Source: a virus. From it: a stretch of DNA of 22,256 nucleotides. The translations under genes and the position numbers were made by a program. Below are positions 5,522-22,256 of this stretch, piece by piece. The notes beneath the pieces are model-generated. The model ran no database searches. It saw only the letters and a program-made list of their open reading frames with translations, and had not been told where the DNA came from. Numbering within the stretch: position 1 is the first letter of the stretch; each line of letters opens with the position of its first letter. The DNA lies in the IMG/VR virus record IMGVR_UViG_3300022538_000522, positions 1 through 22,256 of that record. One strand, 5' to 3'.

Positions 5522-6415
5522 TCACCTAACAAAAATGTAGTTATGCCCAGGAGAAATACCATAAACGTATTTGTGTTTTGACTTCAAGACGAATCCTCTT
5601 TCAGCCAAAAAATCTACAATCTCCTGTGTCTCGGGTCTGCTTTCAATAACCTCAACAAGAACGCTTTTAACTGTTGTATTCCGTAGTGTATTATCTGCCC
5701 CTATCAAGACAAGGTTTTCGATCCCGTCAACGTCAATTTTAATCCAATCTGGAAAGCCTAAGTATTGAACTAATTCATCTATTTTGAAACTCAGCATTTT
5801 TTGTTTAAATACTGGCGTGAAAGGCTTACCTAAATGATTAAGGCTTTCCCCAAGTGCATGGGCGGCATTACCCACTATTAAAGAGGAATAATTAAACGTG
5901 CTTAATCCGGTTACATCTGATACTGCTAACGGTATTGGAACGATACAGTCTTGGCAATCGTTTAGACGAACATTCTCGCACAATTTTCTGTAATTTGAGA
6001 ACCCCGGTTCAAACGCATAAATTTTTACTTTACCCCGTAAGAACTTGGCAGTAACTAAAGAATAAACCCCGACATTAGCACCTATATCAAAAAACACATC
6101 CCCTTTTTTAAAGTTATCTTCTATCCATTCTACTGTTTCCGGTTCTTTTTTGCATGAATTAAGCCGTGTCATTAGTTCAGTCTCAGACTCAATGTTTAGA
6201 AAAATATCATGTCTTTTGTAATCCATTTTTTTTATGGTTTTTGCAATTAAATCGTTTGGCTTCATTTTTGTCTGTCCATTATTACAATTACAATCTGTTT
6301 GTTGAGCAGTTATAGCAGCATTCCACGCTGACAAACATACATATTTAAGATTAACAATAGTTGGTAGTCCAAGTTCTTTTGGTTCATTTTTTTCCCACCA
6401 TTCATCAAACTTCAT
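5522..6415 (-). CDS. FkbM-family methyltransferase with phage N-terminal extension
   Basis: The SAM-binding core is clear: VFFDIGANVGVYSLVTAKF (motif I), IYAFEPGFSNYRKLCENV, then PLAVSDVTG, and later DWIKIDVDGIENLVLIGA and SVLVEV. This is the FkbM family, which O-methylates sugars, polysaccharides or small molecules. The first 60 residues (MKFDEWWEKN to SAWNAAITAQQ, then a CNCNNG linker) instead look like a small phage protein domain built on FDEWWEK and AWNAA, so the gene may be a fusion. ATG 6415 follows GGGGAG and overlaps the previous stop (TAATG). It may modify a host surface glycan (inference). Confidence 0.85.
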   Translation of the reverse strand: MKFDEWWEKNEPKELGLPTIVNLKYVCLSAWNAAITAQQTDCNCNNGQTKMKPNDLIAKTIKKMDYKRHDIFLNIESETELMTRLNSCKKEPETVEWIEDNFKKGDVFFDIGANVGVYSLVTAKFLRGKVKIYAFEPGFSNYRKLCENVRLNDCQDCIVPIPLAVSDVTGLSTFNYSSLIVGNAAHALGESLNHLGKPFTPVFKQKMLSFKIDELVQYLGFPDWIKIDVDGIENLVLIGADNTLRNTTVKSVLVEVIESRPETQEIVDFLAERGFVLKSKHKYVYGISPGHNYIFVR

Positions 6416-6597
6416 TACCACTCCCCTTCATTATCTATGTTAATCTTGTCCGACTCAAACGGCACAACCAATAAGGTAGCCCCCCTGACTTGTTTCCAAT
6501 ACGGCACGCCTTCGGGTCTGGATAGCACACTAAACGCAATACAAGCTATAATCAGGATTAATGCAATCGGTAGCCACCATCTTTCGTCAAATTTCAT
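6415..6597 (-). CDS. Small membrane protein (60 aa)
   Basis: The N-terminus MKFDERWWLPIALILIIACIAFSVL has one membrane segment. Its start, MKFDERWW, echoes the start of the following FkbM gene, MKFDEWW. ATG 6597 is favoured by GAGGAAG eight bases upstream; a GTG at 6606 is also in frame. The gene begins just inside the boundary of an attC-like site, so it would be the first gene of a cassette. Confidence 0.6.
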   Translation of the reverse strand: MKFDERWWLPIALILIIACIAFSVLSRPEGVPYWKQVRGATLLVVPFESDKINIDNEGEW

Positions 6598-6616: not shown

Positions 6617-6713
6617 GATTAACGTCAAAAGTCACCAGCGAGCAGGGCATTAATCAGTATCGTTTACCCCCGAAAGCCGACCCTGCACATCTGCGTGAAG
6701 TGATTGGTTATAC
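6617..6713 (-). repeat. attC-like recombination site (leftward array, second)
   Basis: On the minus strand it opens with TATAAC and closes with CGTTAATC. After an unpaired spacer the left arm TCACGCAGATGTGCAGGG pairs with the right arm CCCTGCTCGCTGGTGA, leaving extra bases on the left arm only. The right side GGTGACTTTTGACGTTA is nearly the same as in the sites at 21249-21345 and 22122-22218. Arm bases differ between the copies while pairing is kept, which argues for a structural site. Confidence 0.75.
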
Positions 6714-7001
6714 AATTGCCCTAAGCCTATCTTTTATCCCATGCAATTCTTCGGTGAATTCCTTAATCATATACTTAGAGCTATGTGCGAGGATAAAGGC
6801 ATCACAAGCCAGACTACCCATAGATTTAAACTGCTTGAGTTTTTTTTCAGGTACACAGCTACTTTTCATCCAGTGTTCACAATTTCCACATTTTTCAGAT
6901 TGGACTGATTTTATCTGCCCCAGCTTATTTTGATATTGATCTTTAATTTGAAGAATTTGAGAAGCCTTGCCCAATGTATCAAAAATAATATCAATATTCA
7001 T
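6708..7001 (-). CDS. Cassette gene: small zinc-binding phage protein
   Basis: The middle carries CGNCEHWMKSSCVPEKKLKQ and later ACDAFILA, a four-cysteine pattern often seen in small phage zinc-binding proteins (CxxCxxW...C...C-x-x-F). Both ends are helical and polar. The whole gene lies between two attC-like sites, starting 20 bases after one boundary and stopping at the first box of the next. It therefore forms a complete cassette of about 399 bp. Function unknown. Confidence 0.7.
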   Translation of the reverse strand: MNIDIIFDTLGKASQILQIKDQYQNKLGQIKSVQSEKCGNCEHWMKSSCVPEKKLKQFKSMGSLACDAFILAHSSKYMIKEFTEELHGIKDRLRAIV

Positions 7002-7015
7002 ATCTCATTCCTGTT

Positions 7016-7146
7016 GTATAACGTATTTAGCTCACTTGCGTGAAACCGTTTTACCACATTTTTCACAAACCATATTTTTGCCTTTTACTATAAAATGATG
7101 TAAATCGCACGACTGTTTCACGTCAGAGTGAAGCGACTGGTTAGGT
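7016..7146 (-). repeat. attC-like recombination site (leftward array, first)
   Basis: This 131-bp site opens with ACCTAAC and ends with GTTATAC on the minus strand. The arms are GCTTCACTCTGACGTGAAAC (7115-7134) and GTTTCACGCAAGTGAGC (7030-7046). They pair almost perfectly, with one unpaired T in GCTTCAC and an unpaired internal segment (CTGA against CA). This one-sided bulge layout with R-type outer boxes is the folded attC architecture. The roughly 70-nt loop is coding. Confidence 0.85.
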
Positions 7147-7277
7147 GATGTATCTGTAGATCTGCTTCCACATTCACATTTATCGCTACTGCTCCAAGCT
7201 TGGTGGCATGCACATACTTGAGAATGGCCTTCTTTTATAAGACGTTTAAATTTATTAAGATCTTTATCTTCTTTCAT
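7032..7277 (-). CDS. Cassette gene: zinc-ribbon protein ending inside attC
   Basis: The 81-residue protein has a first cysteine cluster (CACHQAWSSSDKCECG) and, after a linker encoded by the left attC arm (TSPNQSLHSDVKQS), a second cluster (CDLHHF...MVCEKCGK). Its stop TGA lies in the right attC arm, in the sequence AAGTGAGCTAA. The upstream segment GTTAGGTGACTTATGAAA is identical to the start of the cassette at 21339. It is the first cassette after the attI-like element. Function unknown; zinc binding is likely. Confidence 0.65.
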   Translation of the reverse strand: MKEDKDLNKFKRLIKEGHSQVCACHQAWSSSDKCECGSRSTDTSPNQSLHSDVKQSCDLHHFIVKGKNMVCEKCGKTVSRK

Positions 7278-7292
7278 AAGTCACCTAACCAG

Positions 7293-7320
7293 TCTATAAC
7301 GTGCATTAATTCAATGATAT
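7293..7320 (-). repeat. attI-like boundary element, leftward copy
   Basis: These 28 bases are an exact inverted copy of 21067-21094 and contain the core GCACGTTATAGA. They lie four bases after the stop of the HNH-like gene and immediately before the first cassette. I see no convincing left arm, which is what distinguishes attI from attC sites. Confidence 0.65.
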
Positions 7321-7323
7321 TGG

Positions 7324-7602
7324 CTATTGTTTAAGCTTCTTAATATATCCGATTAACAGCCGTATAATCTCCTTATCAAACGATATATAATGTTTATACT
7401 GAAACGTGTTCTTACCTATCATCTCACATTCAGTATGCTTCTTACGGCTTAGAGGCACAGCAAGATAGTCGCTACCTCCTGCGCCACGTGATTTCGTATG
7501 GTGTGGTTCTGCTTCCTGTTCTGTGATAAGGCATAACTGTTTTCGTATGTATGCGAGATAGTCTTTGTCAATTTCTCGAATTGGCTTTTTATGTTCGTTC
7601 AT
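7324..7602 (-). CDS. HNH/DUF968-like small protein
   Basis: The core EAEPHHTKSRGAGGSDYLAVPLSRKKHTECEMIG matches the pattern of HNH-like phage proteins (HH-x-K-x-R-G-x-GG-SDYL-x-x-PL, then H-x-E and G). Related proteins include the Ref/DUF968 recombination-enhancement nucleases. One cysteine (CLI) precedes the motif, but a full zinc-binding pair is not evident, so it may be reduced. Such genes often sit next to single-strand annealing genes, as here. Confidence 0.65.
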   Translation of the reverse strand: MNEHKKPIREIDKDYLAYIRKQLCLITEQEAEPHHTKSRGAGGSDYLAVPLSRKKHTECEMIGKNTFQYKHYISFDKEIIRLLIGYIKKLKQ

Positions 7603-13292: not shown

Positions 13293-13535
13293 TCATTCCT
13301 CCACTTCATCTGGTGCAAATCTACAAAAAAAGTTATCGCTCTCACGACACGCATCCTGTACTTCATCAGTAAAAAAGCCAATCTTAATATGCTCATCCAT
13401 GTGTATATCTGGCACTGGATACGCAAGAGCAGCATCGGCGAAAGCTTCCATCCTGATTGCGTTCTCTTTGATGGCAATGTAGCAGTTAAATATCCTCTGT
13501 CGGTATGAGATTAGGTCTTTGTGTCTTGGTGGCAT
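13293..13535 (-). CDS. Small hypothetical protein, paralogue B (80 aa)
   Basis: This is the second copy of the family at 12175-12414 (shared PPRH start, YPVPDIHMDEHIKIGFF core and FF near the end). AAAAGGAG lies five bases before ATG 13535. Its upstream region contains half of an attC-like site (13560-13579), so the gene may once have been delivered or trimmed as a cassette. Confidence 0.7.
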   Translation of the reverse strand: MPPRHKDLISYRQRIFNCYIAIKENAIRMEAFADAALAYPVPDIHMDEHIKIGFFTDEVQDACRESDNFFCRFAPDEVEE

Positions 13536-13559
13536 AATCACTCCTTTTAGTCTGCCTTA

Positions 13560-13695
13560 TCTGCGTGAAGTGGTGTGTTATTCCCTTTGATTATTGCGGA
13601 TGCAAGACCAATCTAACACGAATGTGGAAACGATGCCTAGTCGTAAAATTCATTCTGTCCTACCTTGCCTTTCGGACATTGGATATCCGCAAACT
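13560..13695 (-). repeat. Half attC-like site plus long imperfect hairpin
   Basis: On the minus strand, AACACACCACTTCACGCAGA (13560-13579) is identical to the left arm of the site at 22126-22145, but no matching right arm follows. Next to it, TTGCGGAT (13594-13601) pairs with ATCCGCAA (13685-13692) and CCAAT (13608-13612) with ATTGG (13678-13682), closing a long structured spacer. No ORF is evident in these 136 bases. Confidence 0.6.
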
Positions 13696-15293: not shown

Positions 15294-15303
15294 ACCCAAC
15301 AAG

Positions 15304-15376
15304 GTGCGGTTAGCTCAGAGGGCGCAGAGCGTTCGGTTTTGTCTGAAAGATATAGGTTCGAATCCTATACCGCACT
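15304..15376 (+). tRNA. tRNA-like gene, anticodon uncertain (possibly UUG)
   Basis: Acceptor arms GTGCGGT and ACCGCAC pair, GCTC/GAGC form the D stem, and ATAGG-TTCGAAT-CCTAT form the T arm, with T as base 73. CCA is not encoded. The anticodon arm is irregular: TTCGG pairs with CTGAA around a six-base loop TTTTGT, one base shorter than normal. If TTG is the anticodon it would read glutamine, but the loop prevents a sure call. It could be degenerate or of unusual function. Confidence 0.75.
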
Positions 15377-15403
15377 ACTTAATTATTACATTAAAAGGAA
15401 GTT

Positions 15404-15748
15404 ATGAAACGAACAATTGTGTGTTTATGTGGTTCAACAAGATTTAGTGATGCTTTTCAGACCGCCAATTTATCTGAAACTTTGGCAGGGAAAATTGTGT
15501 TAACTATTGGTTGTGATTTTAAAAGTGATGATGAGTTGGGGTTAACCATAGAAGACAAAAAGCGACTCTATGTCTTACATCTACAAAAAATTGACCTTGC
15601 AGATGAAGTGTTAATACTAAATGTCGGTGGATATATAGGAGAAGATACTCAAAAAGACTTGGATTATGCAATATCCCAAAACAAAAACGTTAGATATTTA
15701 GAATCAACACCATTCGGTAATACTTCAACCATAAGAAATAAACCATAG
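15404..15748 (+). CDS. Nucleoside 2-deoxyribosyltransferase-like/DUF4406-type protein
   Basis: The start VCLCGSTRFSDAFQ and the segments KIDLADEVLILNVGGYIGEDTQKDLDYA and NKNVRYLE follow the Rossmann-like plan of nucleoside deoxyribosyltransferase relatives common in phages (G-S-T-R, D-x-A-D-E-V, G-Y-I-G-x-x-T-x-x-x-L-x-Y-A). They may recycle or modify nucleotides; many members are uncharacterised. AAGGAAG precedes the start. It directly follows the tRNA-like gene. Confidence 0.75.
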   Translation: MKRTIVCLCGSTRFSDAFQTANLSETLAGKIVLTIGCDFKSDDELGLTIEDKKRLYVLHLQKIDLADEVLILNVGGYIGEDTQKDLDYAISQNKNVRYLESTPFGNTSTIRNKP

Positions 15749-15757
15749 GAGGCTTAA

Positions 15758-15943
15758 ATGAACGAACAAATATTAATAGATGGCTTAATGCGTAGGCACG
15801 ATAAGCACGGTACAATTCCTGTATATCCAGAATATAAAGCAGATGAAGCGGATGACAGATTATGTGGTGTTTGCGGTCAAGATGATAGGGTGTCTCATGC
15901 AGGGTGCTTACAGATTGCTTCAACGCCACACCATAAGAAATAA
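15758..15943 (+). CDS. Small hypothetical protein (61 aa)
   Basis: It holds a CGVCGQ motif and a later HAGCLQ, perhaps one zinc site. The 3' end (CACCATAAGAAATAA) and the following TAGGAGG repeat the end of the preceding gene (ACCATAAGAAATAAA...TAGGAGG at 15727-15750), a small intergenic duplication. No family recognised. Confidence 0.55.
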   Translation: MNEQILIDGLMRRHDKHGTIPVYPEYKADEADDRLCGVCGQDDRVSHAGCLQIASTPHHKK

Positions 15944-15961
15944 GTCGTAGGAGGTAGGGGG

Positions 15962-16198
15962 ATGAAACCATGTGATTGTAAAAACCGGCAAGATAAAGAC
16001 AAAATGGAAGTGCAAGGAATAACTATTAATGATAATTCGATTAGAGTCCGACCGCCAGTTGTTATTTTGACAACTGGCTCATGTACTATGAAAATAACTC
16101 AATCTGTATTTAAAAGTTTTGCTCATTGGTATTTTGGAGATCAGAAGCAAAGCATCCAGTGGCAACCGCCCGCAACTTGTAAACTTCATGATAAATAG
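15962..16198 (+). CDS. Hypothetical protein (78 aa)
   Basis: An N-terminal CDCKNR and a later pair of single cysteines are seen. The middle is strand-rich (ITINDNSIRVRPPVVILTTGS). GGAGGTAGGGGG lies upstream of the ATG. No family recognised. Confidence 0.55.
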   Translation: MKPCDCKNRQDKDKMEVQGITINDNSIRVRPPVVILTTGSCTMKITQSVFKSFAHWYFGDQKQSIQWQPPATCKLHDK

Positions 16199-16213
16199 CG
16201 ATAAGAGGTAGCC

Positions 16214-16339
16214 ATGATAAAGGCTAAATGCCAAGACTGCGGTCATGTATTTTGGGCGGCTATAATTCTGGGTGAAACTAAATGTCCGAAGTGCGACAGC
16301 GAAAATACCTGTGTCGCAATTCATGTTTGTAATAGCTAA
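16214..16339 (+). CDS. Small zinc-ribbon protein (41 aa), paralogue A
   Basis: It has two cysteine pairs, CQDCGHVF and CPKCDS, spaced as in a zinc ribbon. The same layout recurs at 19316-19435 (CANCHHEF, CPKCGS, then VAI near the end), so the two are paralogues. GAGGTAGCC precedes the start. A nucleic-acid or protein-binding role is likely but unproven. Confidence 0.65.
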   Translation: MIKAKCQDCGHVFWAAIILGETKCPKCDSENTCVAIHVCNS

Positions 16340-16395
16340 TATAATGGAAAGTTTTCCGTCTATAGACTGGTTCTTTTGCTTGGAGGTAAACGAAA

Positions 16396-16635
16396 ATGCT
16401 TACTAAAAAACAAGTCATTGATATTTTAAATAATCCACACGCTTATACTAAAGATGCACGACAAGAAGCAGTTAAGGCTGGTATAAAGATATTGGATGAA
16501 ATAGCAATTGCGGAAGACGCAAAAGAACACACCGCTGCACCGGACAGCGAAGGTCGTGCGGTTTTCGAGGATGATATTAGATACATAACTTGCCATAAAT
16601 GCGGGAAACATTGGGATTTCTGTCGCTGCCGATGA
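16396..16635 (+). CDS. Cassette gene: helical protein with zinc ribbon from attC
   Basis: The N-terminal half is helical (KKQVIDILNNPHAYTKDARQ). From EHTAAPDSEG on, the frame runs through an attC-like site whose loop encodes CHKCGKHWDFCRCR, and it stops at the TGA of the right arm. TAAPDSEG is identical to a segment of the otherwise different cassette protein at 21351-21614, since both come from the same attC arm. TTGGAGG precedes the ATG. Confidence 0.65.
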   Translation: MLTKKQVIDILNNPHAYTKDARQEAVKAGIKILDEIAIAEDAKEHTAAPDSEGRAVFEDDIRYITCHKCGKHWDFCRCR

Positions 16636-16649
16636 GCTAATCATTATAA
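16522..16649 (+). repeat. Decayed attC-like site of a solitary cassette
   Basis: Left arm GCTGCACCGGACAGCGA (16534-16550) follows an AAC box and pairs with TCGCTGCCGATGAGC (16623-16637). The closing box reads ATTATAAG where GTT is expected (16643-16645), so the conserved cleavage triplet is lost and the site is probably inactive. The left arm is identical to the one at 21510-21526. Confidence 0.7.
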
Positions 16650-16655
16650 GAACAC

Positions 16656-16684
16656 TTGACACACATAATCAGGTTTGGTATGTA
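16656..16684 (+). promoter_or_regulatory. Sigma-70-like promoter of the replication operon
   Basis: TTGACA (16656-16661), a 17-base spacer, then TATGTA (16679-16684), with TATGAT four bases on as an alternative. It would drive a roughly 150-base untranslated leader before the GIY-YIG gene at 16838. Confidence 0.6.
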
Positions 16685-16745
16685 TGATATGAGGATATCT
16701 TATGAGATATTGCCGGAATCTCGACCAATCAAACTTTAAAGTTAG

Positions 16746-16817
16746 AAAAAGCGTATTAACAACCATTCAGCGCAATGCTGTTTTGGGGAGTCCGGCGCTC
16801 CAGTTAATGCGCTTTTT
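16746..16817 (+). promoter_or_regulatory. Three-way-junction leader element, possible attenuator or origin
   Basis: AAAAAGCGTATTAAC (16746-16760) pairs with GTTAATGCGCTTTTT (16803-16817) over 15 positions with one G-U. Inside are two small hairpins, CAGC-GCAAT-GCTG (16768-16780) and GGAG...CTCC (16787-16801). The right strand runs into TTTTTGTATTTTT, as in an intrinsic terminator. Region 16650-16837 holds no gene. Upstream of replication genes it could be an attenuator, a small RNA or part of the replication origin. Confidence 0.65.
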
Positions 16818-16837
16818 GTATTTTTAAGGAGATTATT

Positions 16838-17257
16838 ATGGAAAAAGTAAAAAAAAGACAGTTCGTTGAATATGCTGGAGATTGGGGTGTTAGCCCAGAA
16901 GGTTATTATAGTAAGTTTTTTAATTATTATAGTCGATTTTTTCTTTATTTTATATGTGATGAGGATTCTAAATATTTAAAAATTGGGATCTCAAAAGAAC
17001 CAGAAGAAAGAATAAAAGCTCTCCAAACTGGTTGTCCACTAAAACTCATCCTTCTTTTAAAGTTCTATGGTACTCAAGAAATAGAAACTAAACTACATGA
17101 CGAATTAAAAGAATATCGTTTAAGGGGTGAGTGGTATTCATTAACAGATGAAAATGGATGGAAAGTTAAAGCTGCAATAAAAGAACTGTGTTTGGGTTAT
17201 TTTTGCGGTATGACAATGCCAACGTTTAATATTGTTTATGGTGATATGGATGGGTAA
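16838..17257 (+). CDS. GIY-YIG/T5orf172-type nuclease-domain protein
   Basis: The segment FLYFICDEDSKYLKIGISKEPEERIKALQTGCPLKLILLLKF, then EIETKLHDELKEYRLRGEWY, matches the T5orf172/MUG113 branch of the GIY-YIG fold (Y-F-I, KIGIS, R-I-x-x-L-Q-x-G-x-P, E-x-x-L-H, GEW). Members occur widely in phages and may nick DNA or act as regulators. AAGGAG precedes the ATG. The gene follows a structured leader and heads the replication operon. Confidence 0.8.
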   Translation: MEKVKKRQFVEYAGDWGVSPEGYYSKFFNYYSRFFLYFICDEDSKYLKIGISKEPEERIKALQTGCPLKLILLLKFYGTQEIETKLHDELKEYRLRGEWYSLTDENGWKVKAAIKELCLGYFCGMTMPTFNIVYGDMDG

Positions 17258-17888
17258 ATCACCCGCATTTCAATTTTATCCTAAAGATTTTCTATCCGAT
17301 ATAAATGTTGCGTCTATGACTATGGAAGAACGCGGCATATATATTACCCTTCTTTCATATTGTTGGCTTGAAGGGTGCTTGAAGGGTGGTTCGCAGGTGG
17401 TTGAAGCAATTTGCAACCATCCGGAAAATTGGGATGAAATTTGGGATAAAGTAAGCCAATGTTTTTATGAAAAAGATGGGAAATTCTACCATAAACGGCT
17501 TGAAGAAGAACGGAAAAAACAAGAAGAATGGCGAGAAAAATCAAGACTTGGGGGGATAAAGAGTGGTAAAGCAAGAAGAAAATTTAAGGGTGGTTTAGGG
17601 GTGGTTGAACCAAAAGGCAACACTTCATCTTCATCTTCATCTATAAAGAAAATTAATAAAGAAAAATATGGTGAGTTTGTTTTATTAACTAAAAATGAGT
17701 ATAATAAACTAATAAAAAAATATTCTGAGTTTATCGTTAAAAATAAAATTGAGGATCTAAATAATTATATCGGTTCTAAGGGTGATAAATATAAATCCCA
17801 TTATCATACTCTTTTAGCTTGGTTAAGGAAAGATAATCCAGAAAAGCCAAAAAAACACGAACCATCATTAAAGGAACTTGTTTCCTAA
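17250..17888 (+). CDS. DUF1376-type replication protein
   Basis: The N-terminal domain SPAFQFYPKDFLSDINVASMTMEERGIYITLLSYCWLEG is DUF1376, typical of phage replication or helicase-loading proteins. A basic linker (EEERKKQEEWREKSRLGGIK) and a serine tract SSSSSSIKK follow; the tract is encoded by short TTCATC repeats near 17628. The C-terminal part resembles the helicase-loader ends of such proteins. It lies directly before dnaB and overlaps it (TAATG), so it is probably the initiator or loader. Start 17250 overlaps the previous stop. Confidence 0.8.
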   Translation: MGKSPAFQFYPKDFLSDINVASMTMEERGIYITLLSYCWLEGCLKGGSQVVEAICNHPENWDEIWDKVSQCFYEKDGKFYHKRLEEERKKQEEWREKSRLGGIKSGKARRKFKGGLGVVEPKGNTSSSSSSIKKINKEKYGEFVLLTKNEYNKLIKKYSEFIVKNKIEDLNNYIGSKGDKYKSHYHTLLAWLRKDNPEKPKKHEPSLKELVS

Positions 17889-19207
17889 TGGACAACAGAC
17901 TTCCACCACAAAATATCGAAGCCGAAGAATCACTATTAAGCGGTATTCTTATAAACAATGACACATTAATTGATATTGTTGATATTCTTTCACATGAAGA
18001 CTTTTATAGGACAGCCCACCAAAAAATATTCTCAGGTATTGCAAAGCTATATCTAAAAAAAGAACCTATTGACCTTATCACACTTCCTAATGTTCTCAAA
18101 GAAAGTGGGCATTTAGAAGAGATTGGAGGTGCGACATATTTAGCCACACTTGTTGATACCGTTCCTCTTGCTGTAAATGCAAAGCACTATGCTAAAATAG
18201 TTAAAAAAGCATCAGTAGCAAGGCAATTAATAGAAGCCTCAAACGATATAGCGAACTCAGCTTATGAGCTTAATGGAAATATGATTGAGATTTTAGATGA
18301 AGCTCAGTCTAAGATAATTAACATTAACTTTGATATTGATAATGATAATTTTGTATCGGCCGCTGATATAACGACACAAAGAGTTGAGCAATATGAAGAA
18401 ATGTCTAAAAGGGGCAAGGTTTACGGCATACAAACAGGCTTTTATAAACTCGATATTCTGACAGGTGGGCTAAAGGGTTCTAAGTTTATTGTAATGGCAT
18501 CAAGACCGCGAATAGGGAAAACAGCCCTTATGATGAACATGGCAAACAATATAGCAAAGGACAGTCATAAGGTAGGTATATTTTCCGTAGAAATGGACAA
18601 AGAAGAACTGATAGACAGGTCTATATCATCAAGGAGCGGGGTTAATTTAATAAAACTTACTACTGGAAACGGGCTAACGGCTGAAGATTGGCAACACATT
18701 ACTGATGCCGCATCTGAGATTTATGATTATCCGATAGTTATTGATGATACTGGCGGACTTAAAATACAAGAACTAAAGCGTAGGGCAAGAAAAATGGTCA
18801 AAGACGGAGTTGAGATAATATTCATTGACCAGCTTAGTAAAATTAGGGGCGGTAAGGGCAAGTCCGAATACGAAAAGCGGTCATTTATTGTCAATGAAAT
18901 AGCTATATTAAAAAAAGACTTGCGAATACCTGTCTGTCTTTTGGCGCAGATTAATAGGAAGCTCGAAGACCGACAAAACAAAAAACCTATACTTGGGGAT
19001 CTTAAAAGCACAGGAAGCCTTGAAGAAGATGCTGATATAATACTCTTAGGTCATAGGCAGTATGAATACACCCATGATGAAGACGACAAGCATCTTGCAG
19101 AATGGGAGATTGCAAAGCACAGACAGGGTGCTACCTGTAATATTGAGATGTATTGGGATGGCAAGACTACAACATTTAGTTCTATACAGGAGGGCTATAA
19201 TGAATAA
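17888..19207 (+). CDS. dnaB: Replicative DNA helicase, DnaB family
   Basis: The N-terminal domain (PPQNIEAEESLLSGILIN to YLATLVDTVP) and the RecA-like C-terminal domain are complete. Walker A is SRPRIGKTALMMNMA near residue 204, with S in place of the usual first G/A. IFSVEMDKEEL, the Walker B segment EIIFIDQLSKI, and LKSTGSLEEDADIILLGHR follow. At 439 residues it is near normal length. It unwinds DNA at the phage fork. Confidence 0.95.
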   Translation: MDNRLPPQNIEAEESLLSGILINNDTLIDIVDILSHEDFYRTAHQKIFSGIAKLYLKKEPIDLITLPNVLKESGHLEEIGGATYLATLVDTVPLAVNAKHYAKIVKKASVARQLIEASNDIANSAYELNGNMIEILDEAQSKIININFDIDNDNFVSAADITTQRVEQYEEMSKRGKVYGIQTGFYKLDILTGGLKGSKFIVMASRPRIGKTALMMNMANNIAKDSHKVGIFSVEMDKEELIDRSISSRSGVNLIKLTTGNGLTAEDWQHITDAASEIYDYPIVIDDTGGLKIQELKRRARKMVKDGVEIIFIDQLSKIRGGKGKSEYEKRSFIVNEIAILKKDLRIPVCLLAQINRKLEDRQNKKPILGDLKSTGSLEEDADIILLGHRQYEYTHDEDDKHLAEWEIAKHRQGATCNIEMYWDGKTTTFSSIQEGYNE

Positions 19208-19307
19208 AGACCAAGCCTACGAAAGAGAAAAGAAAAAACTCCCGCCCATGAAGCCAGCAGAGCATGAGAAAGCAATCCGGGAGATAGCGAGGAAGTTGAG
19301 GATATGA
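19200..19307 (+). CDS. Very small basic protein (35 aa)
   Basis: An AGGAGG lies seven bases before ATG 19200, which overlaps the end of dnaB. The product MNKDQAYEREKKKLPPMKPA, then HEKAIREIARKLRI, is a charged helical peptide. Many phages have such mini genes after a helicase; role unknown. Confidence 0.55.
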   Translation: MNKDQAYEREKKKLPPMKPAEHEKAIREIARKLRI

Positions 19308-19315
19308 GGTGAATT

Positions 19316-19435
19316 ATGATTAACGCTATTTGCGCAAATTGTCATCACGAATTTATTGCTATCGTTATCATGGGAATAACAGAATGTCCTAAATGTGGTA
19401 GTAAGGACACCCACGTTGCAATTTATGAGGATTAG
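19316..19435 (+). CDS. Small zinc-ribbon protein (39 aa), paralogue B
   Basis: Cysteine pairs CANCHHEF and CPKCGS form one zinc-ribbon, with the same layout as 16214-16339 and shared VAI near the end. AGGTGA precedes the start. It lies in the replication operon. Confidence 0.65.
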   Translation: MINAICANCHHEFIAIVIMGITECPKCGSKDTHVAIYED

Positions 19436-19522
19436 GCTTCCTTATATAGCGAAATAAGCAGACATCTCCAAAAATAAGTACATGGGTAGGGGTAAACACT
19501 AAAAACGAAAGGAGAACTTATT

Positions 19523-19795
19523 ATGATTAATGAAGCAGGTAAAACAGGAAAAGAGTCAGAGGTGAAAGAATTTTTGAATGGTAATCATAGAAGGGTAGAT
19601 AAATTAACAGATGTAGTAAGCCAACTTAAAGAACGATTGAGTTCAGTATTGCGAGTAGCAACACCAGAACCAGCGTGTGAGACAAAAGAAGCAAGAACCT
19701 TAGTGCCATTAGCTGAAGATTTAAAGGGACTATGCGACGGAATATCACAAGAAACAACACGCCTTGAAGACATTTTAAACAGACTTGAGCTGTAA
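19523..19795 (+). CDS. Small coiled-coil protein, paralogue of 13700-13969
   Basis: It shares LKERLSSVL, T-x-E-P-A, then ARTLVPLAEDLKGL and the ending RLEDILNRLEL with the leftward gene. N-terminal residues differ. AAAGGAG precedes the ATG. The 87 bases before it hold no other visible gene. Confidence 0.7.
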   Translation: MINEAGKTGKESEVKEFLNGNHRRVDKLTDVVSQLKERLSSVLRVATPEPACETKEARTLVPLAEDLKGLCDGISQETTRLEDILNRLEL

Positions 19796-19807
19796 GTGGT
19801 AAATGAT

Positions 19808-20377
19808 ATGAGTGAAGTAGATAGCAAAGAAGAACTGTATATGTCATGGTGGCTTTCCGAGCTAAAAGAAGCCGGATACATTAAATCATATCAACTTCAC
19901 CCACAAAGCTATATCTTATCAAACTTGCGCAAGTACAAATATGATAAACAGCTAAAGACTAAGACAAAAGAAATAGAAACTACTCTGATTGCAGGACATG
20001 TTTATACAGCGGATTTTGAAATTAAATGGCACGAAAAAGCAAGGCATATATTTTTTAATACGTTCAGGGATAAAGTATATCTTAAAAAGATTCCATTTGT
20101 GGCTCAAGATGTTTTTGGTTCAGATTTTAGTTCGAGCAGCATCGTTGAAATCAAAGTAACATTTGATAGGTTTCATACAAATCGAGAATTTTCTATAAAT
20201 CAAAAATGGATGTTGTTAAATCGGGACTTGTATGTGCAAAAGATAGTAGTTGCAAAGCTGTTTGAGAAAACTTTTGTACCAGAGAGATATTTAATGACAG
20301 ATAAAAGTGGAAAGAGGCGAAAGATTAAGTTTGAGGTTAGGAGTTTACGAGAATTTATAAATGACTCAAAAGTATAA
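19808..20377 (+). CDS. PD-(D/E)XK-like phage endonuclease
   Basis: The layout recalls DUF1064-type phage nucleases: SWWLSELKEAGYIKSYQLHP at the start, then HVYTADFEIKWHE and later SSSIVEIKVTFD. ADFE and VEIK give a candidate D...E-x-K active site. DUF1064 proteins are thought to be related to Holliday-junction or restriction-type nucleases. ATG 19808 is used; a GTG at 19796 is in frame. It follows replication genes, where a resolvase or nicking function would fit. Confidence 0.65.
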   Translation: MSEVDSKEELYMSWWLSELKEAGYIKSYQLHPQSYILSNLRKYKYDKQLKTKTKEIETTLIAGHVYTADFEIKWHEKARHIFFNTFRDKVYLKKIPFVAQDVFGSDFSSSSIVEIKVTFDRFHTNREFSINQKWMLLNRDLYVQKIVVAKLFEKTFVPERYLMTDKSGKRRKIKFEVRSLREFINDSKV

Positions 20378-20534
20378 ATACGCATGGGGCAATAATTCCA
20401 AAAGAGCCGAAATGAAAGGCAGAGAATGTATATTAATAGCTTCCGGCAAGAAAGGCTCTGTAATGATAAAATTTACTGATAACGGACAGAGAGAAATAGT
20501 GAGCCGGAGAGCGTTGAGGCGTATTAAATCTTAA
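20361..20534 (+). CDS. Small basic conserved phage protein (57 aa)
   Basis: The pattern KRAEMKGRECILIASGKKGSVM, then IKFTDNGQREIVSRRALRR, matches a small beta-rich protein often found in phages (M-K-G-x-x-C-x-x-L-A-x-G, V-x-I-x-F-x-D-G, S-R-R-A-L-R). It overlaps the nuclease gene by 17 bases. Function unknown. Confidence 0.65.
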   Translation: MTQKYKYAWGNNSKRAEMKGRECILIASGKKGSVMIKFTDNGQREIVSRRALRRIKS

Positions 20535-20551
20535 CAGCATAGGAGGTAATG

Positions 20552-20725
20552 ATGAGTGTGTATAACGATATGGCTAATGATGCCGGTTATTCTTATGATA
20601 CTGACGAAAATCAGCAAATGGCACAAATGCTGGAATGGGAAGAGGGACAAAAATTGCAAAGAGACTATGCCCGATATCTTGAAAATACAGAATATCGTGA
20701 AATATTATTTCGCAAGTTTTCCTAA
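20552..20725 (+). CDS. Small acidic hypothetical protein (57 aa)
   Basis: A strong AGGAGG is five bases before ATG 20552. The product (YNDMANDAGYSYDTDENQQM to REILFRKFS) is acidic and aromatic-rich. No family recognised. Confidence 0.6.
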   Translation: MSVYNDMANDAGYSYDTDENQQMAQMLEWEEGQKLQRDYARYLENTEYREILFRKFS

Positions 20726-20743
20726 ACCATAAAGGAGGACATC

Positions 20744-21067
20744 ATGCCATCACCGCAAAAAGTGCCGCAGGAAAAGATAAAAGCCATGCTTGCCGCTTAT
20801 GAAATGACCGGTATAGTAAGAAGATATGTTATTGCGGAAATGTGTAATGTTCCGGCCAGCATAGTTAAAGATATTTCCGAGTTCAAAGAACGGCGTACTT
20901 ACTTCAGGTACAAAAGAGGCAAATGGAAGCCAAGAGGAAAGGAGATGTGTGGGTGTTGTGGTATTCGGTCAATAGACAAAGAAGCAGGGTTAACGAAGCT
21001 ATGTTATACTTGCTTTGAGAGCAATGGCGGTAGTGTCGGGGATGATTTATATAAGGTTTGGATATGA
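20744..21067 (+). CDS. HTH plus zinc-ribbon protein (107 aa)
   Basis: The N-terminal half (IKAMLAAYEMTGIVRRYVIAEMCNVPASIVKDI) reads as a helix-turn-helix. After a basic linker (RYKRGKWKPRGKE), a CGCCG...CYTCF pair follows, a single zinc ribbon. DNA binding is likely. The stop TGA is directly at the start of the 28-nt attI-like element, so this is the last ordinary gene before the cassettes. Confidence 0.65.
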   Translation: MPSPQKVPQEKIKAMLAAYEMTGIVRRYVIAEMCNVPASIVKDISEFKERRTYFRYKRGKWKPRGKEMCGCCGIRSIDKEAGLTKLCYTCFESNGGSVGDDLYKVWI

Positions 21068-21094
21068 TATCATTGAATTAATGCACGTTATAGA
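21067..21094 (+). repeat. attI-like boundary element, rightward copy
   Basis: These 28 bases are identical to the inverted copy at 7293-7320, and similarity continues for about eight more bases (TGGTTA). The core GCACGTTATAGA has a GTT box at 21087-21089, from which the first cassette is counted. No convincing left arm is seen. Confidence 0.65.
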
Positions 21095-21126
21095 TTGGTT
21101 ATGTTTCTTGGGAACAGGAGATAAAA

Positions 21127-21312
21127 ATGAGTATATTAGACATGAAAAATAAAGACATTGAAAAATCATTATGCTATACTTGTTCTAATAGATTTCTATG
21201 TATATTCGCTTTAGAAGGTATAGTTCATACATGTAAAGACTATAAGAAATATAACACACCGCTTCACGCAGACAAGCAGGGTCGGCCTTCGGAGGTTGAC
21301 GATGGCTCTTAA
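21127..21312 (+). CDS. Cassette gene 1: small cysteine-containing protein
   Basis: The 61-residue product has CYTCSNRFLCIFALEGIVHTC, a four-cysteine motif that may bind zinc. Its last 19 residues (NTPLHADKQGRPSEVDDGS) are encoded by the attC-like site. CAGGAGA precedes the ATG. The cassette spans about 252 bp between GTT boxes. Function unknown. Confidence 0.65.
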   Translation: MSILDMKNKDIEKSLCYTCSNRFLCIFALEGIVHTCKDYKKYNTPLHADKQGRPSEVDDGS

Positions 21313-21345
21313 TCCCCTACTTGCTGGTGATTTTTGACGTTAGGT
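21249..21345 (+). repeat. attC-like site after cassette 1
   Basis: It opens ATATAAC and closes CGTTAGGTG, with GTT at 21339-21341. After unpaired spacers (ACACCGCT and GTCAAAAA), TCACGCAGACAAGCAGGG pairs with CCCCTACTTGCTGGTGA, leaving extra bases on the left arm. CCTTCGGAGG is a small hairpin in the loop. This is the folded attC plan. Confidence 0.85.
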
Positions 21346-21350
21346 GACTT

Positions 21351-21614
21351 ATGAAATATGAATACAAAAGTAAGCGTACAGACGATACAGATCCATTTAG
21401 AGGCTCAGTCATGGAATTAAATGCTATGGGTCAAAATAGATGGGAGTTGGTGGCGGTTATACTCTTTCATAGAGAGACAGAGTGGATATTTAAGCGTCAC
21501 CTAACCACCGCTGCACCGGACAGCGAAGGTGATATTGATTTAGAAAAAGAGTTTTGTCCAACGTGCGGTTCTACAAATATGTTCGGCGGAGTATGTCCAA
21601 TTCGCTGCCTGTGA
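21351..21614 (+). CDS. Cassette gene 2: DUF4177-like protein with zinc ribbon
   Basis: The N-terminal 48 residues (MKYEYKSKR to MGQNRWELVAVILFHRE and WIFKR) look like the small DUF4177-type domain (L-N-x-x-G-x-x-x-W-E-L-V). From HLTTAAPDSEG on, the chain is encoded by an attC-like site; its loop adds FCPTCGSTNMFGGVC and the stop TGA lies in the right arm. A second copy of the start of this gene lies at the window end. Confidence 0.7.
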   Translation: MKYEYKSKRTDDTDPFRGSVMELNAMGQNRWELVAVILFHRETEWIFKRHLTTAAPDSEGDIDLEKEFCPTCGSTNMFGGVCPIRCL

Positions 21615-21629
21615 GCTAAATTGTTATAA
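21499..21629 (+). repeat. attC-like site after cassette 2
   Basis: This 131-bp site opens ACCTAAC (21499-21505) and ends GTTATAA (21623-21629). GCTGCACCGGACAGCGAA (21510-21527) pairs with TTCGCTGCCTGTGAGC (21601-21616), with one unpaired G and a one-sided internal bulge. Its length equals that of the leftward site at 7016-7146. Confidence 0.85.
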
Positions 21630-21648
21630 ATCAGGAGGAGATATTATC

Positions 21649-21780
21649 ATGGATACTGAAGAATTATATCAAAACATAGATCAAGAGGAAGATATGTCGG
21701 ATGCGGAAAAACGTGAAAGTTATTTTACAGAAGTTGAAAACGATCAGGCTTATGAAGATTGGAAAGACAGAGGCCATTGA
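21649..21780 (+). CDS. Cassette gene 3: very small acidic protein (43 aa)
   Basis: AGGAGG precedes ATG 21649 by a little over ten bases. The product is acidic (MDTEELYQNIDQEEDMSDAE, ending QAYEDWKDRGH). It stops just before the next AAC box, so the cassette is about 263 bp. Function unknown; charge suggests a DNA mimic or inhibitor, without proof. Confidence 0.6.
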   Translation: MDTEELYQNIDQEEDMSDAEKRESYFTEVENDQAYEDWKDRGH

Positions 21781-21781
21781 T

Positions 21782-21892
21782 TTATAACACAGCACTGGAG
21801 CGGATTGCTAATGCTTGCGCCTACTCCAATGAATCGTCAGATTTAGACTGAAGGTGTTTAATTGGAATAAAGGCGCAACCACTCAGTTATAT
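21782..21892 (+). repeat. attC-like site after cassette 3
   Basis: TTATAAC at the start (AAC 21786-21788) and GTTATAT at the end (GTT 21886-21888) are the outer boxes. Inside, GCGCCTACTCCAAT (21817-21830) pairs with ATTGGAATAAAGGCGC (21861-21876), and CACTGG with CCACTC more weakly. The arms differ from the other sites, so the call is less sure than for its neighbours. Confidence 0.6.
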
Positions 21893-21917
21893 CGTTCTAT
21901 TTCTTGAGGATAAGAGG

Positions 21918-22106
21918 ATGATCATAAATTTAAACGTAAAAATTAAAGGTGGCCCGAGGACTCCAGTTGAGGTTGATGTATATGGGACTGCTGTAAATAC
22001 AAAAGTAATGAAATTTAAAAACGGCAGAACTATATCAGATAATGATATCGCTGTATGGATTAAACATCACTTAACTGAAATACTATCCGGGATACAGTAT
22101 GACTAA
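21918..22106 (+). CDS. Cassette gene 4: small hypothetical protein (62 aa)
   Basis: The product is compact (MIINLNVKIKGGPRTPVEVD, then TKVMKFKNGRTISDNDIAVW, then IKHHLTEILSGIQYD), probably alpha/beta. AAGAGG precedes the ATG. It lies between two attC-like sites in a cassette of about 326 bp. No family recognised. Confidence 0.65.
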   Translation: MIINLNVKIKGGPRTPVEVDVYGTAVNTKVMKFKNGRTISDNDIAVWIKHHLTEILSGIQYD

Positions 22107-22121
22107 ATTTAGTTAAACGAA

Positions 22122-22218
22122 ATAGAACACACCACTTCACGCAGACAAGCAGGGTCGGCCTTCGGAGGTTGACGATGGCTCTTAATCCCCTACTTGCTGG
22201 TGATTTTTGACGTTAGGT
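22122..22218 (+). repeat. attC-like site after cassette 4
   Basis: AAC at 22126-22128 and GTT at 22212-22214 bound a copy of the site at 21249-21345. The two are identical from 22135 onward, with one difference in the left arm (A against G at 22134). The upstream flank differs, as expected for cassettes with different genes. Confidence 0.85.
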
Positions 22219-22256
22219 GACTTATGAAATATGAATACAAAAGTAAGCGTACAGAC
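22135..22256 (+). repeat. 122-bp direct repeat at the window end
   Basis: 22135-22256 is identical to 21262-21383, a spacing of 873 bp. It covers most of an attC-like site plus the first codons of the cassette-2 gene. The window ends within the repeat. Confidence 0.9.
22224..22256 (+). CDS. Second copy of cassette gene 2, 5' fragment
   Basis: The first 11 codons (MKYEYKSKRTD) equal those of the gene at 21351. The rest is beyond the window. Either the cassette is duplicated or the contig loops onto itself. Confidence 0.6.
   Translation, partial: MKYEYKSKRTD

Follow-up and report, generated by a model that had tools for sequence, protein, structure and literature searches.

Divergent integron cassette arrays in a tailed phage begin behind a common, putatively attI-like leader

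CALINs, arrays of attC sites without intI, have been described in virulent phages, and IntI1 was able to recombine five of the six phage attC sites tested with attI1 (Qi et al. 2023, PMC9892861). Phage CALINs are therefore already known; the route by which cassettes enter phages and are retained in them had been open. The window analysed here is a whole 22,256-base IMG/VR virus record (IMGVR_UViG_3300022538_000522), and its two cassette arrays are CALINs of this known kind in a phage. The window encodes RecE- and Erf-like recombination proteins, NinB, an endolysin, a tail chaperone and a DnaB helicase. A second contig (G002) overlaps positions 15658–22256 at 100% and extends past the window end, and a third (G013) continues it; window, G002 and G013 span ∼61 kb, and these joined contigs encode a terminase and a major head protein. 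The leftward array is part of a tailed phage. The window end falls within a repeated cassette, a possible reason for the break in the assembly at this point. Elsewhere in the window lie 75-bp direct repeats coding FNQDIxxWDT-type repeats at the window edge (1–196), a GIY-YIG homing endonuclease gene surrounded by tail and lysis genes (457–1116) and a tRNA gene (15303–15378), for which ARAGORN made no anticodon call (given as 'tt').

The leftward array, on the minus strand, starts behind a leader at 7289–7320 (ATATCATTGAATTAATGCACGTTATAGACTGG; crossover G at 7289), which itself begins no more than 5 nt from the stop of the preceding ORF 7324–7602, whose product is DUF968-like, slightly below the Pfam cut-off. 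Cassette 1 (7022–7288) runs from TTAGGTG up to the G of R', and its start core GTTAGGT (7289) is complementary at 7/7 positions to R'' ACCTAAC (7146). Its 81-aa ORF (7032–7277) enters the 131-nt attC site (7016–7146; stem score 15.0; L'' arm with three bulges, L' arm with none) and ends at a TGA in the L' region. Cassette 2 (6623–7021) is joined by a second 7/7 link, between R' GTTATAC (7022) and R'' GTATAAC (6713), and carries a 97-aa open reading frame (6708–7001) and a 97-nt attC site of family A (6617–6713), which was assigned by stem, structure-alignment and bulge tests. Both sites show canonical R''/L''/L'/R' boxes. The initial annotation, which had called both sites attC-like and read both cassettes leftward, agrees with these results to the base: the R''-to-R' spans are 7146–7016 and 6713–6617 on the minus strand, both frames are open and the chain is exact. 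The leftward parts together form a two-cassette integron array (CALIN). Neither Pfam nor PHROG gave a match for ORF 7032–7277, and searches of Pfam, PHROG, isolated phages and plasmids assigned ORF 6708–7001 to no known family. A third leftward cassette was considered at an R''-like GATTAAC (6445) and not counted; no stem site was found there, and the link background gives an estimated chance of about 1 in 10. An FkbM-type methyltransferase gene (5522–6421) stands behind the array and is possibly older cargo.

The rightward array, on the plus strand, has its leader at 21067–21098, starting at the stop codon of ORF 20744–21067 and differing from the leftward leader by 1 nt. Four attC sites lie within the window: 21249–21345 for cassette 1 (ORF 21127–21312; start GTTATGT against R'' ATATAAC, 6/7), 21499–21629 for cassette 2 (ORF 21351–21614) and 21782–21900 for cassette 3, the last two identified by stem, link and bulge tests, and 22122–22218 for cassette 4 (ORF 21918–22106). 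Three more 7/7 links join them in the order 21249, 21499, 21782, 22122. A second copy of cassette 2 (21340–21623) follows, 873 bp from the first, and the array runs on into G002/L035 with two further attC sites in G002, where its end coincides with that of a convergent ORF, at the stop codon (L035 7087). This duplication, together with near-identical attC sites (95/97) on two different ORFs, is what cassette recombination is expected to produce. The proposed kinship of sites across the two arrays was borne out as well. The site at 6617 belongs to the same family as 21249 and 22122 (73/97 identical, with compensatory changes); in the family A stem alignment, which holds four sequences only, 96% of stem cells are paired and three pairs are changed on both sides, compared with 28–51% pairing if the alignment is slid. 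The site at 7016 shares plan and length with 21499, both being 131 nt (alignment score 22.5 against a shuffled maximum of 7), with similar ends and a dissimilar middle. The second array on the opposite strand thus passed the structural comparison with the rightward sites. On the minus strand at 13556–13581, upstream of ORF 13293–13541, a family A attC site is represented by its left half only (ATAACACACCACTTCACGCAGATAAG), the right half being absent; this is probably a cassette relic.

Both arrays begin at G/TT (the slash marks the crossover) immediately behind the 32-nt leader ATATCATTGAATTAATGCACGTTATAGAYTGG, and both leaders adjoin the upstream phage gene at its stop codon. A third copy, ATATAATGGAAAGTTTTCCGTCTATAGACTGG/TT, lies at 16339–16370 on the plus strand; it has the same ends as the array leaders (ATAT...TATAGACTGG/TT) and a different middle, and all copies in this phage end in TATAGAYTGG/TT. 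It heads a lone cassette (ORF 16396–16635) with an attC site at 16519–16652 on the plus strand, whose extended R'' GCAAAAGAAC is complementary at 10/10 positions to the cassette start GTTCTTTTGC. This site belongs to the 21499 family, its R' core being lost by decay to ATTATAA. The phage therefore carries three cassette insertions, each headed by a leader copy. Like an attI site, the leader stands at the head of the array with the crossover at G/TT; attI direct repeats were not seen in the leaders, as far as could be checked. The initial annotation had mentioned neither the common leader nor the third insertion, nor that the rightward array runs past the window end with a repeat of its own cassette.

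The window's own leader sequence was sought in other records and not found there. A complete circular phage of 46,124 bp with repeated ends, a terminase and a portal (G001), reached via its family A attC, contains three arrays; two of these are divergent, and at the head of each stands another leader, ATATCAGGGCAAATTKRCCTGATAATCAATGG. A search with free loop for this second family (ATCAGG..CCTGATAATCAATGG/TT, a 30-nt hairpin) gave 12 copies on 11 other viral contigs. Among 10 non-redundant copies, seven stand directly before a cassette whose R'' match is exact and one (L050) before a cassette matching at 6/7; the copies in L151 and L152 have no cassette within the contig sequence examined. By bulge polarity, the leader always lies at the attI end of the array, even in G012 and L155, where the cassette ORFs oppose the attC direction and hence would not be expressed by read-through from the leader side. 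Genes carried behind leaders of this kind include one of C5-cytosine methylase-like type, one for an Mrr-type nuclease and several that are radical-SAM-like. L151 and L154 are 98% identical upstream and diverge exactly where the leader ends; the continuation in L154 differs from that in L151 and, read by eye, closes in an attC-like sequence, so content at the leader site varies in nature. The near-identical L150 and L156 are set apart by a single 296-bp cassette-like insert with flanks GTTAGGAGG/CCTCCTAAC, a difference that may be a deletion by homologous recombination, as the right half of the insert's attC resembles the phage target. The window leader and the second family agree in length (32 nt), in the end TAWWSAMTGG/TT and, for several copies, in starting with ATAT, and are not demonstrably homologous. 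A cassette follows 7 of 18 copies of this motif, a set that takes in copies found by searching for part of it, compared with 6 of 1460 other TGG/TT sites.

No integron integrase was found in the window record or the contigs that overlap it (∼61 kb in all), nor in the complete G001. A PF00589 profile search was negative in 28 of the 29 virus records (G000–G027), many of which may be fragments, and TIGR02249, the integron integrase model, gave no match above cut-off in the virus records searched. The 337-aa tyrosine recombinase of G028 was rejected as IntI; its TIGR02249 match is far below cut-off, and it is a phage-type recombinase. The arrays have at least two attC sites with no intI nearby, as CALINs do, PF00589 being absent from G000, G002, G013 and G001, and the intI adjacent to attI that marks a complete integron was not found. 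Because G001 is complete and lacks an integrase, any IntI must come, at least for this phage, from the host or another element. The family A attC pattern gave three matches in 84,980 species genomes, all judged to be chance as no attC-like site covers them, and so pointed to no host. The leader pattern was absent from 767 sampled Pseudomonadota genomes and gave partial matches only, or none, in plasmids, isolated phages and E. coli. The leftward-array DNA matched no isolated phage and, among plasmids, gave one 38-nt match (E=0.06); the cassette ORFs tested had no match in isolated phages or plasmids.

Could the attC sites be inverted repeats that arose by chance? Minimum folding energy, uninformative as a sole test, leaves room for this reading, because most sites are unexceptional and only 7016 gets to z=−2.2. 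The chain test refutes it: the window holds five exact links, dinucleotide shuffles of the window gave 0 links in 40, the background chance of a link per AAC is ∼0.7–1.1%, and isolated single links outside arrays occurred at four loci only (136 loci, 1.7 Mb, array-bearing loci included). Each cassette start is complementary to its own R'' (NNNNAAC), within the R''...R' (GTTNNNN) plan of integron cassettes, and the L''/L' stems of the window sites have extrahelical bases solely on L'' (2–3 bulges on that arm in 6/6 sites). Scored with a symmetric penalty for bulges, the leader-proximal (L'') arm has the greater number of extrahelical bases in 26 of the 31 sites behind leaders and the smaller number in two (p=3e-6); since the chain test is symmetric in strand, this polarity is independent evidence of direction. 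Homology between the arrays and recurrence in other phages also speak against chance, which we regard as practically excluded; on these sequence features, the window elements are as good as certainly integron cassettes. The initial annotation had left repeated capture and inversion of one array side by side. The latter, in which one array with its leader was duplicated and inverted and its cassettes then turned over, draws on the leader being inverted between the two arrays with a single mismatch and on the similar twin leaders of G001. It predicts common cassette content, and the two arrays share no cassette ORF; moreover, similarity ends at the leader edges, and the third copy is clearly diverged, hence the copies are not all recent. 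Inversion is accordingly disfavoured and, to our minds, quite improbable, and repeated capture is favoured by the same leader, the absence of a common cassette ORF and the third leader at 16339.

From the exact junctions, the recurrence in unrelated phages and the presence/absence pairs, we infer that the leader probably acts as a phage-borne, attI-like docking site, and we consider it likely that phages carry such sites and load cassettes onto them via host IntI. During infection, a host integron integrase would recombine a circular cassette at the leader G/TT (attI × attC); cassettes arriving later would go in either at the leader or at an attC site already present, and shuffling or duplication could follow, as for cassette 21340–21623. 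IntI would act in trans, and the cassettes would presumably be transcribed by read-through from the preceding phage operon. The cassettes may instead be genuine and have entered via host IntI at non-specific attG-type sites, the leader being an ordinary phage element (a terminator or gene-end repeat) that is a good or tolerated target. IntI insertion at attG is known (Loot et al. 2024, as reported in PMC12444791 and PMC12901181), the leaders lie at gene ends, the second-family hairpin could act as a terminator or as an attG-type hot spot, and the CALIN of phage TJE1 sits behind a predicted terminator (PMC9892861). The third array of G001, which may be attG-like, has no leader; it lies antisense between the portal and terminase genes (L038 6943–7998), and its last R' GTTA provides the terminase stop codon. 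However, an attG is a scattered, divergent target without conserved flanks in those reports, whereas the leaders are conserved over 30–32 nt on unrelated contigs, the cassette starts at the same base each time and the leader without exception occupies the attI end, so that we judge this account unlikely. Distinctly improbable, in our view, is that the leaders derive from ancestral attC sites, as truncated right halves left over from first cassettes. The second-family leader does resemble L''-L'-R' without R'', being a short hairpin with one bulged base, a spacer and G/TT, but an upstream AAC box is not consistent, and in several phages the gene before the leader takes its stop codon from it.

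On the docking-site reading, the recurrent site and the natural presence/absence pairs make the entry route directly testable, and such a site would connect the integron cassette pool with phage accessory genes, and back to bacteria. We put at about even the prospect that there is a class of phages with dedicated docking sites (a hairpin leader ending TAWWSAMTGG/TT) in several copies, in both orientations and at operon ends, where a host integrase in trans would bring in and swap accessory genes, anti-restriction methyltransferases for example; this would amount to an integrase-less phage integron. As far as the literature searched shows, attI-like leaders kept by phages appear to be new. As at attG sites, described in the accounts of Loot et al. 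2024 above, the cassettes behind the leaders are inserted outside integrons; the attG sites of those accounts are scattered and divergent, whereas the leaders are conserved 30–32-nt elements. With the attI of complete integrons they share the head-of-array position, the crossover at G/TT and the uniform attC polarity of the cassettes; they differ in lacking an adjacent intI, in occurring in several copies per genome and both orientations, and, by eye, in sequence from attI1. In the Shewanella prophage M16-3 (PMC9892861), a copy of attI heads a prophage CALIN as the leader heads the window arrays, and its end ..CTAATAAAATG/TT is loosely like the leader end ..TAATCAATGG/TT (7/10, by eye); unlike in the window phage, that attI is the one of a complete integron within the same prophage. 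The phage arrays described here resemble the CALINs of Qi et al. 2023 (PMC9892861) in DNA methyltransferase cargo and in divergent attC directions, seen there in P12002L. They differ in that no conserved head site was described there for the intI-less arrays of virulent phages, whereas the arrays of the window have one leader in common, and leaders of an analogous family turn up repeatedly on other phage contigs.
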